This document shows, piece after piece, positions 3,503 to 33,358 of a stretch of DNA of 45,698 bases (its first letter is position 1; the number at the start of each line of letters is the position of its first letter). A program made the translations under genes and the position numbers. This stretch comes from Roseobacter sp. GTDB lineage: Bacteria > Pseudomonadota > Alphaproteobacteria > Rhodobacterales > Rhodobacteraceae. Where the stretch lies: positions 1 to 45,698 of the forward strand of contig NZ_JAHEHZ010000007.1 of NCBI RefSeq assembly GCF_024639605.1, written 5' to 3'. Under the pieces are notes generated by a model. It was not told the DNA's origin and did not search any database. It saw only the letters and a list, made by a program, of their open reading frames with translations.

Positions 3503-3736
3503 ATGACACAGGATATGACCCTCTCGCCCCGCACGCTGGACTATCTTAACCGCACCCGTACGGTTCCGATGCTGTCGCTGATCGCGGTCGAATTCGCGGT
3601 CTGCCTGTCGCAATGGGTCACGCGGCGCCGCACAAGGCAGGCGCTCCGGCAGCTGACAGTCTGGCAGCTGGAAGACGTGGGGCTGACACCTGAGATGGCT
3701 CATCGCGAGGCATCCAAGGTGTTCTGGCGCGCGTAG
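3503..3736 (+). CDS. DUF1127 domain small protein (77 aa)
   Basis: MTQDMTLSPRTLDYLNRTRTVP...WVTRRRTRQALRQLTVWQLEDVGLTPEMAHREASKVFW; matches the DUF1127 pattern (RxLxxLxxxxLxDIGLxxxxxxxEAxKxFW); GGAG upstream of ATG. The ORF track reports a longer ORF from 2981. Confidence 0.85.
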   Translation: MTQDMTLSPRTLDYLNRTRTVPMLSLIAVEFAVCLSQWVTRRRTRQALRQLTVWQLEDVGLTPEMAHREASKVFWRA

Positions 3737-5138: not shown

Positions 5139-5305
5139 CTGTGCTCTTCCCCCTGCCCTGTCGTCCGAGTTTCGCGAAATCTGCGGCCAGAGCAACCCAT
5201 CTGCGGGCAGCAATCATAGCAGTGGCGATTGTTTCCAGTCCGGGGCTTCAGCGTTTCGAAAACTATGCTTCCAATTCAGGCGGTAAAGTGGCACTTCTGG
5301 GGCGA

Positions 5306-5400
5306 AGGGTATGCGTACCCTGCGACTGTTTCGGGTCGCTGCCGGCGGAGGGTCCCTCCGGGTCAGTCTCTCCTGGCCGACATTCCCGCGGCGGCGACCC
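5306..5400 (+). ncRNA. Structured RNA element (trmFO leader or independent sRNA), family not identified
   Basis: AGGGTA-TGCG-TACCCT hairpin (5306-5321); 12-bp stem GGGTCGCTGCCG(5333-5344)/CGGCGGCGACCC(5389-5400) enclosing hairpins CGGAGG-GTC-CCTCCG (5346-5360) and GGTCAG-TCTCTC-CTGGCC (5361-5378). Confidence 0.55.
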
Positions 5401-5502
5401 CAAAACTCTTTCATCTTTGTATCGACGTGCCTGCGACCGGGGCGGTGCGACATGAGGCGCGGCGCGGTTGCACCGGACCCCTGGCTGTTTTACACGGCGG
5501 GT

Positions 5503-6855
5503 ATGACACAGGAACTTCATATCATCGGCGGCGGCATGGCTGGCTCCGAAGCGGCCTGGCAGGCAGCAAACGCAGGCATTTCCGTTGTTGTGCATGAAAT
5601 GCGCCCTGCGGTCGGAACCTTTGCGCATCAGACCGGGCTTCTGGGTGAGATGGTCTGCTCCAACAGCTTCCGCTCGGACGATCATGAGCAGAACGCCGTG
5701 GGCCTGTTGCATTGGGAGATGCGCGAGGCCGGCGGGCTTATCATGCGCACGGCTGACAAACACCGGCTGCCGGCGGGTGGCGCGCTGGCGGTCGACCGCG
5801 ACCCTTTTGCACAATCGGTTACGGACGCATTGCTGGCGCATCCCAATGTGCGCGTCGAATATGGCGAAATTCGCGCACTGCCGCGAGAGGGACACTGGAT
5901 CATTGCCACCGGTCCGCTGACGTCCTCGGCTCTGGGAGAGGCGATCGCGGCCGAAACCGGCGCGGAAGCGCTGGCTTTTTTCGATGCCATCGCGCCGATC
6001 GTTTATCATGACAGCATCGATATGAGCAAAGCCTGGATGCAGTCACGCTATGACAAAGGCGAGACCGAAGAAGAGCGCACCGCCTATCTCAACTGCCCGA
6101 TGGATAAAGCACAATACGAGGCTTTCATCGACGCGCTGATTGCTGCGGATAAAACCGAATTTCACGAAGGAGAGACTGCGGGTTATTTCGACGGCTGTCT
6201 GCCCATCGAGGTGATGGCCGAACGCGGGCGAGAGACCCTGCGCTTTGGACCGATGAAGCCGGTTGGTCTGACCAATCCGCACCAGCCTGATGTGAAGCCC
6301 TATGCCGTCGTGCAGTTGCGCCGCGACAACAAACTGGGCACGCTTTACAATATCGTGGGCTTTCAGACGAAGATGAAGTATGGCGCGCAGGCCGATGTTT
6401 TCAAATGCATTCCAGGTCTTGAAGAGGCACGCTTTGCACGTCTGGGCGGCATCCACCGCAACACCTTTCTGAATGCGCCGACGCTGCTCGACGGGCAGAT
6501 GCGGCTGCGCTCACAACCCAATATCCGTTTTGCGGGGCAGATTACCGGCGTCGAGGGGTATGTGGAATCTGCCGCCATGGGCATGCTTGCGGGTCGCCTC
6601 GCCGCCGCTGAGATACGCGGCGAGACGCTGGAAACACCTCCCGACACCACGGCGACGGGTGCGCTGATCACCCACATTTCCGGCGGGGCAGAAGCGAAAA
6701 CCTTTCAGCCGATGAATGTCAATTTTGGTCTCTTTCCGCCTGTGGAAGGCCTTAAAGGCGGGCGGCGCGGGCGCAAAGACCGGTACAAAGCGTATACCGA
6801 CAGGGGCAAAGCTGACTGGAAAGCCTGGCTCTCGGGGGCTATGGCGCCTGCGTGA
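5503..6855 (+). CDS. trmFO: Methylenetetrahydrofolate--tRNA-(uracil(54)-C5)-methyltransferase
   Basis: [35 protein letters not shown]...[16 protein letters not shown]...; start trimmed from ORF start 5311 to the conserved FAD-binding N-terminus. Confidence 0.96.
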
Positions 6856-32308: not shown

Positions 32309-33358
32309 ATGGGACTATTCATACTCAGACGCCTGGGCGTGATGTTACTGACGGCGTTATGCCTGACGTTCATCGTGTTCTGGCTTACCAATCTGTATCC
32401 AAACCTCGAAAAACTTGCGAAAACGCAAGGAAACTTCCGCATGTCGGATGAGGCCGTGACAAGTTTTCTGGACAAAAACGGCTATCTGCAGCCGATGCCC
32501 GTGAAATTCGGTCAGTGGCTGGGCGTTTTGCCAGGCTGGACATGGGAGGACCCGGAGACCGGTGCCGTTACCGGCAGATGTTTTGCCTCCGGCACACCAG
32601 AAGAGGAACGCGGTAGTTTTTGCGGTGTGATCCAGGGCGACTGGGGATTTTCGACAGTCTTCAAGGAGGACGTGGGCGGTATCGTGGCGACAAGGCTCGG
32701 CCTGACGGGCAAGCTGATGTTCGCGGTGATGCTGGTGATGGTGCCGATGGCGCTGCTTATCGGGGTTCTGGCGGGCATGCGCGAGGGGTCGGTCACGGAC
32801 CGGACGCTCTCGACCTTCTCGATTGCATCGACGGCCACACCGGAATACGTTTCGGGCGTTATTTTCATCGCGGTCTTTGCCTCCTCAGCCGTCGGGCTGA
32901 AATGGTTCAAAGGATCGGCAACCTCTGCCATGGAAAACGCGACCTTCGAGAATTTTACCCTGCCGGTGATTACAATCGCCCTTTACGGCATGGGATATAT
33001 CGCGCGGATGACGCGGGCGTCGATGACTGAGGTCATGACGGCGCAGTATATCCGCACGGCGCGCCTGAAAGGCGTAAAATTCTCCGACATCGTTATGAAG
33101 CACGCTCTGCGAAATGCGCTGATCGCCCCTTTTACGGTGATTATGCTGCAGTTTCCCTGGCTGCTGAACGGTGTGGTGATCGTGGAGACGCTCTTTAACT
33201 ACAAGGGCTTTGGCTGGCTGCTGGTGCAGGCGGCGGGAAACAATGACATCGAGCTGCTGCTGGCGGTCTCGGTCGTCTCGGTCGCCGTGGTTCTGGTGAC
33301 GCAGCTGATATCTGATATCGGCTACGTGTATCTGAACCCGCGCATCCGCATCGCATAA
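32309..33358 (+). CDS. ABC transporter permease, dipeptide/oligopeptide (DppB-like) type
   Basis: BPD-type signature 'ASMTEVMTAQYIRTARLKGVKFSDIVMKHALRNALIAPFTVIMLQFPWLLNGVVIVETLFNYKGFGWL'. Confidence 0.92.
   Translation: MGLFILRRLGVMLLTALCLTFIVFWLTNLYPNLEKLAKTQGNFRMSDEAVTSFLDKNGYLQPMPVKFGQWLGVLPGWTWEDPETGAVTGRCFASGTPEEERGSFCGVIQGDWGFSTVFKEDVGGIVATRLGLTGKLMFAVMLVMVPMALLIGVLAGMREGSVTDRTLSTFSIASTATPEYVSGVIFIAVFASSAVGLKWFKGSATSAMENATFENFTLPVITIALYGMGYIARMTRASMTEVMTAQYIRTARLKGVKFSDIVMKHALRNALIAPFTVIMLQFPWLLNGVVIVETLFNYKGFGWLLVQAAGNNDIELLLAVSVVSVAVVLVTQLISDIGYVYLNPRIRIA

Follow-up and report, generated by a model that had tools for sequence, protein, structure and literature searches.

A conserved structured RNA of Rhodobacteraceae found upstream of trmFO and, in some genomes, inside the first codons of a peroxidase gene

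Our results show that the DNA upstream of trmFO in a Roseobacter sp. genome carries a conserved, structured, plus-strand RNA element with two nearly invariant pyrimidine loops. The window is the whole stretch of DNA analysed, 45,698 nucleotides. The element belongs to a family of homologous RNAs; in ten genomes it coincides with the first codons of an intact peroxidase gene, while the stand-alone copies, that of the window included, do not maintain the peroxidase reading frame. We propose, with a probability of roughly 0.6, that it is a free-standing, single-copy small RNA (sRNA) of the plus strand, which would have its own promoter, act in trans by base pairing and have originated in the peroxidase gene. 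Expressed from the conserved DNA ahead of it, the sRNA would use its CCCUCC and CUCUC loops to pair with GA-rich Shine-Dalgarno regions at the translation starts of target mRNAs, and this pairing would lower their translation or stability.

Fold, strand and distribution of the element

The initial annotation had placed a structured RNA at 5306-5400, within a 364-nt gap upstream of trmFO. The length of the gap (5139-5502, the trmFO ATG being at 5503) was given correctly and a structured element does lie there, but the conserved unit spans 5329-5405. Its parts, and the hairpin that precedes it, are:

5329-5405, plus strand: the structured element as conserved in the family, matched over its full length by the covariance model (77 nt in the window copy; single copy)
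5330-5342, plus strand: 5' strand of P1, partner 5391-5404
5391-5404, plus strand: 3' strand of P1, partner 5330-5342, with C5401 bulged
5345-5348, plus strand: 5' strand of P2 (GCGG), partner 5386-5389
5386-5389, plus strand: 3' strand of P2 (CCGC), partner 5345-5348
5352-5354, plus strand: 5' strand of P2b (GUC), partner GAC at 5379-5381
5379-5381, plus strand: 3' strand of P2b (GAC), partner GUC at 5352-5354
5355-5359, plus strand: CCUCC, nearly invariant, inside CCCUCC/CCUCCA and complementary to the Shine-Dalgarno sequence GGAGG
5361-5378, plus strand: P3 hairpin, stem 5361-5366/5373-5378
5367-5372, plus strand: UCUCUC, apical loop of P3, its CUCUC core nearly invariant in the alignment
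5306-5321, plus strand: 5' hairpin of the type GGGUA-UGCG-UACCC, its position kept across copies and its stem sequence variable

The plus strand of 5300-5410 folds with -54.7 kcal/mol (z=-2.46; 3 of 200 shuffles were equally good), and the minus strand of the same stretch has z=-1.52. In GC-rich DNA folding energy alone is suggestive evidence of moderate weight, and a comparative test was therefore made. The window copy scores 82.6 bits (E 1.6e-15) against R1, a covariance model from 14 sequences, and 78.1 bits against a second model, R2, the E-values of both models being rough. P1 is a long terminal stem and P2/P2b a short inner helix; the hairpin P3 completes the fold. In P1 (13 pairs) 97.2% of cells are paired and two-sided changes occur in 10 pairs; the window copy has one mismatch, C5332-A5402. 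The corresponding values are 94.8% with two-sided changes in 4/4 pairs for P2, 80.3% with 2/3 for P2b, which seems to have moved to GGU/ACC in some lineages, and 95.4% with 6/6 for P3. Over the 89 aligned copies, standard pairs fill 94.5% of cells and two-sided changes affect 22 of the 26 pairs, against a mean of 10.7 after shuffling and 7-11 after sliding; the cells with two-sided changes number 210, against 54.3 and 15-44 respectively. One of the 89 alignment rows is a reverse-strand match, which weakens this result slightly, and the alignment, fitted to a model built from the same structure, leans towards that structure; RNAalifold recovered the same helices from an unfitted alignment. Orthologues from many genera carry compensatory changes in every helix. 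We judge this covariation decisive for a structured RNA. The 5' hairpin lies outside the scored helices and, by eye, seems to covary.

The plus strand is the RNA strand, since G.U pairs outnumber A.C pairs 130 to 43 (in 22 and 11 pairs, respectively; reverse row left out). That strand had already been proposed from two wobbles, T5340-G5393 and T5363-G5376, which by themselves were thin evidence for a correct conclusion. On these counts a minus-strand RNA with purine loops was rejected. A protein-binding palindrome in the DNA, or an RNA of the minus strand, would account for the outer stem being an inverted repeat and for both strands folding, but we consider it highly improbable: besides the excess of G.U, a palindrome requires neither fixed loops nor two-sided changes in helices separated by 20-70 nt, and the promoter-like conserved block lies 5' of the element on the plus strand.

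The comparative fold retains most of what had been seen in the window alone. The 12-bp stem 5333-5344/5389-5400, with its T5340-G5393 wobble, is present and its outer stem is kept; the hairpin at 5361-5378 is family-wide and corresponds to P3; and the 5' hairpin with its UGCG loop is there in the sequence. The other proposed inner hairpin, 5346-5360 (CGGAGGG-U-CCCUCCG), is by contrast peculiar to the window and its nearest relative, and is visible because a G has replaced a neighbouring A, so that GGAGGG can pair with CCCUCC. In the family fold, long-range pairing replaces this hairpin: G5345-G5348 pairs with C5386-C5389 and G5352-C5354 with G5379-C5381, leaving CCUCC (5355-5359) single-stranded, so that CCCUCC is exposed beside the CUCUC apical loop. 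Predicted unpaired probabilities average 0.94 for CCUCC across 123 copies and 0.99 for the CUCUC loop; in the window copy CCUCC is predicted to be partly paired (0.30-0.63 per base).

A BLASTN search of 146 relatives with 5250-5520 as query found 15 same-locus copies in other genomes, mostly spanning 5329-5405. With R1, 46 of the 397 genomes searched in the family proved to carry the element, once each. R2 detected it in 77 of the 296 genomes searched in the order and in 2 of the 289 searched in the class (alphaproteobacteria), both Rhodobacteraceae; since strict filters drop weak matches, these counts are lower bounds. By these searches the family is confined to Rhodobacteraceae in the samples covered. 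A pattern scan of named genomes pointed mostly to Sulfitobacter, Ruegeria, Tateyamaria and Roseobacter relatives; its few unrelated matches, in Streptomyces, Clostridia and others, had no covariance-model match. Ruegeria pomeroyi itself was absent among the loci found; one of its trans-sRNAs (PMC4809877) was considered as a possible counterpart of the element. The window assembly is fragmented (260 contigs), but assembly error is of no concern because the nearest relative, 91% identical across the region, has the same element. Several Roseobacter genomes possess trmFO without the element, which is therefore dispensable. A very divergent relative (locus L207, genome G286; 20.7 bits) lies ~60-150 nt upstream of trmFO; its stem sequence is swapped, yet GUCCCUC and the hairpin with the CUCUC loop are retained.

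Upstream DNA and relation to trmFO

Two regions of conserved DNA flank the element, one ahead of it and one immediately ahead of trmFO:

5229-5304, plus strand: upstream block of fixed spacing, presumed promoter/activator region, with position-specific conservation in 136 copies
5231-5236, 5253-5257 and from 5268, plus strand: motifs of this block, GTTTCC, GTTTC and CTTCCAATTCAGGC, respectively
5289-5293 and 5300-5303, plus strand: further motifs of this block, TGGCA and GGGC
5468-5496, plus strand: predicted trmFO promoter (TTGCAC 5468-5473, 17-nt spacer, TACACG 5491-5496)
5503-6855, plus strand: trmFO, tRNA m5U54 methyltransferase (Pfam GIDA, 1.6e-94)

In 129 distinct sequences upstream of trmFO, a TTGC box, the spacer and a CCTAnnT box are conserved at a fixed distance from the ATG, the second box being 12-13 nt ahead of it in 105 of them; further upstream these sequences show no conservation. 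This arrangement suggests that the trmFO mRNA is leaderless, or nearly so, across these Rhodobacteraceae. The block ahead of the element is the putative source of a separate transcript. The window's upstream region contains no match to the sigma-70 consensus, and a sigma-54 promoter was discarded: the GG-N10-GC spacing is suggestive, but the second G is just 42% conserved. The block's pattern, which matched at most once per genome in the 9 genomes scanned, gave no clue to the regulator. Between 5279 and 5304, and in the homologues, GGC(A) recurs three times with an 11-nt period, as expected of a regulator bound to one face of the helix.

One alternative, also raised in the initial annotation, is that the element is a cis-acting leader controlling trmFO from within its 5' UTR, as a riboswitch or a protein-binding attenuator. 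All 160 copies for which trmFO could be placed lie upstream of it and on its strand, most of them within 150 nt, and no U-rich intrinsic terminator was found 3' of the element, so a read-through transcript could carry it into trmFO. Against this, trmFO has its own conserved promoter at the start codon, with no conserved DNA between promoter and element; the ATG lies 49 to 340 nt away, or 1.3-1.5 kb where a whole peroxidase gene intervenes; neither a terminator nor a fold masking the start site was found; and there are the Roseobacter genomes that have trmFO alone. Since trmFO has its own promoter and a whole gene can separate the two, the element is probably not its leader, a role that we regard as decidedly unlikely. 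The part of that annotation that proposed a functional plus-strand RNA was borne out by the covariation, the G.U excess and the constant orientation towards trmFO.

The peroxidase gene and the direction of evolution

In ten genomes, which include a few of the same genus and one near-identical pair, the element occupies codons ~3-28 of an intact ORF for a di-haem cytochrome c peroxidase of the CCP/MauG type, in the order thioesterase/enoyl-CoA hydratase - peroxidase - trmFO. We first met this frame in weak-scoring genomes; its consensus is M-x-x-W-V-T-x-x-x-x-S-L-Q-A-x-L-S-L-A-A-x-L-P-x-P-V-T-H..., and the codons concerned specify the signal peptide and the first mature residues (one such ORF, at locus L177, matches Pfam CCP_MauG with 5.7e-35). 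The reading frame is kept in 10/10 embedded copies (distance 67 or 94), as against phases of 66/37/22 and a stop in 30 among 125 stand-alone copies, the state of the window copy. P1 is perfect in all ten embedded copies despite differing between lineages inside the codons, where its arms occur as GGGTCACC/GGTGACCC, as GGGTCGCC/GGCGACCC (Thr to Ala together with Val to Ala) or as GGGTTACC/GGTAACCC. Two near-identical genomes of one genus (loci L252 and L253) have an embedded element of 107 nt; it has gained 27 nt, inserted in frame after P3 and ahead of the 3' strand of P1, and its outer stem is intact.

The peroxidases at the trmFO locus fall into a single clade, with support 100, to which none of 19 paralogues belongs. 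Rooting a TrmFO tree with other alphaproteobacteria places embedded copies in several deep lineages, with stand-alone copies nested around them and 7 changes needed between the states. These trees were built quickly and contain many weakly supported forks, 42 of the 109 inner branches of the TrmFO tree being open, which makes the number of losses uncertain. Both states occur in one genus (g338), one genome has the element without the peroxidase alongside an embedded relative (L229), and two have the peroxidase and no detectable element (L246, L247). At locus L179 the peroxidase gene carries a frame shift, located in or close to the element's CU repeat, followed by a truncation; it may show a gene in decay whose RNA is retained.

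The simplest reading of these patterns would be a single origin inside the gene followed by repeated loss of the gene body. The structure would have arisen inside promoter-proximal codons of the peroxidase gene, between the enoyl-CoA hydratase gene and trmFO, and the 5' RNA would have been retained each time the gene body was lost. We give roughly even odds to the full form of this proposal, in which a trans-acting RNA was born in the signal-peptide codons of the peroxidase, constrained them, and repeatedly outlived the gene with its fold and loops kept. The reverse course, in which the stand-alone state is ancestral and the peroxidase gene captured the element as a signal peptide in some lineages, seems improbable to us. 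Stand-alone copies are indeed far commoner, and in Sulfitobacter-type genomes an intact orthologous peroxidase with an ordinary signal peptide lies upstream of a stand-alone element. But in embedded copies the first residues of the mature protein, LPxPVTH, are native ones (the element-free orthologues have LPAPVSD/LPAPVTD) and their codons form the 3' strand of P1, so that a capture would have had to recreate the pairing by chance. An identical in-frame fusion would moreover have been required in each of the separated embedded lineages; the alternative, one capture with many losses, again amounts to repeated survival of the RNA without the gene.

Under an origin within the gene, the Sulfitobacter-type arrangement would need a duplication or rearrangement. 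A partial tandem duplication of the promoter and the 5' codons would explain both the arrangement and a shared upstream motif, the pair GTTTC...TTTYC, which is found at 8/10 embedded genes, 5/6 Sulfitobacter-type peroxidases, 45/141 stand-alone copies and 0/19 paralogues.

The origin of most bacterial sRNAs is untraceable. Here one syntenic locus preserves the intermediates: the gene whole, its codons containing the RNA; the frame-shifted gene at L179; the RNA alone; and neither. With them, the birth of sRNAs out of protein genes can be tested directly. The signal that once controlled the peroxidase could also be read out from the stand-alone RNA or its promoter. Retention of the RNA after loss of its host gene argues for an action in trans and against a cis role for the peroxidase gene, and its repeated survival is evidence for a selected trans function.

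Mode of action and comparison with known RNAs

How would such an RNA act? Its two loops suggest an anti-Shine-Dalgarno sRNA, which likely works as do the RNAs of the alpha-r14 family. This family (NfeR1 of Sinorhizobium, grouped with the cuckoo RNAs) comprises trans-acting sRNAs with identical anti-Shine-Dalgarno motifs in unpaired regions and strongly different stem sequences (PMC10746234). We favour translational repression by pairing of the loops with Shine-Dalgarno regions because fixed anti-Shine-Dalgarno-like loops on varying stems are the hallmark of alpha-r14/NfeR1 (PMC10746234); the complementarity of the loops is short and of low specificity. The main rival to mRNA pairing is a sponge or scaffold role in which a protein, for example a pyrimidine-binding or ribosomal protein, binds the C/U loops. 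Covarying helices that keep two nearly invariant pyrimidine loops in place, in a fold more compact than that of many base-pairing sRNAs, are compatible with such a role. We nevertheless think it unlikely, as both loops are complementary to GA-rich Shine-Dalgarno sequences, as in alpha-r14 (PMC10746234), and no protein partner is indicated.

A match to a known family was looked for and none was obtained. A scan of the whole window with Rfam 15 found no family at the element, the element alone gave a single chance lncRNA match (9.8 bits; E<=10), and six homologous loci matched no family. SRP, RNase P and tmRNA, whose signatures the initial annotation had not recognised, were dismissed for want of an Rfam match, as were riboswitches and 6S RNA, which had been kept as a possibility. 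Judged by Rfam and by the main texts of earlier comparative papers, in which an unnamed sighting is possible, the family may be previously uncatalogued; if so, it adds an RNA with two clear loops to those of a major marine bacterial group. The window's only Rfam match is a full-length RF02647 Cis52_sRNA (Ruegeria cis52) at 32935-33113 on the minus strand (99.9 bits).

Other order-restricted structured RNAs of the Rhodobacterales have come from comparative genomics, among them the SAM/SAH, HRC-8-4 and uORFC-8-2 motifs (PMC2864571, PMC8632094). In the portions of these reports available to us, the first precedes metK, the second sits between cco operons and the third precedes cysS; none is at trmFO. 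As far as the accessible portions of the sources go, the element shares with sRNAs derived from mRNAs, such as 3'-end-derived sRNAs (PMC9438474) and MalH (PMC8081044), the taking of a regulatory RNA from the transcript of a protein gene, and differs from them in coming from the 5' coding end and persisting after loss of the gene. In the searches made, we found no precedent for an RNA of a 5' coding end outliving its gene. GsrN of Caulobacter has an exposed C-rich loop as its most conserved part, lies near general-stress-response genes and has a BLASTN range limited to Caulobacteraceae (PMC5869019). The C-rich exposed loop is common to both RNAs, but context and fold differ, and homology was set aside as general likeness only.

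The resemblance to alpha-r14 and the cuckoo RNAs, fixed pyrimidine loops on varying stems, is one of working and not of membership. The alpha-r14 RNAs have three separate hairpins, each with CCUCCUCCC, whereas the present element has one long stem with CCCUCC in an internal loop and CUCUC in the apical one, occurs in Rhodobacteraceae only and occupies another genomic place. We claim no membership because the defining motif CCUCCUCCC is absent from the aligned copies. The CcsR1-4 RNAs of Rhodobacter sphaeroides, which are grouped with the cuckoo family, come from the same bacterial family as the element. Their genes lie 3' of the DUF1127 gene ccaF1 and share its operon, which has an RpoHI/RpoHII promoter and a Rho-independent terminator (PMC10253847). 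The element, in contrast, is present in single copy, has no DUF1127 operon and no Rho-independent terminator, and its neighbours across genomes are trmFO, thioesterase, enoyl-CoA hydratase or peroxidase genes. The window does encode a small DUF1127 protein at ~3503-3736 on the plus strand (Pfam PF06568, 3.1e-08). In Rhodobacter, proteins of this type go with CcsR/cuckoo sRNAs; here 1.6 kb and other genes separate it from the element.
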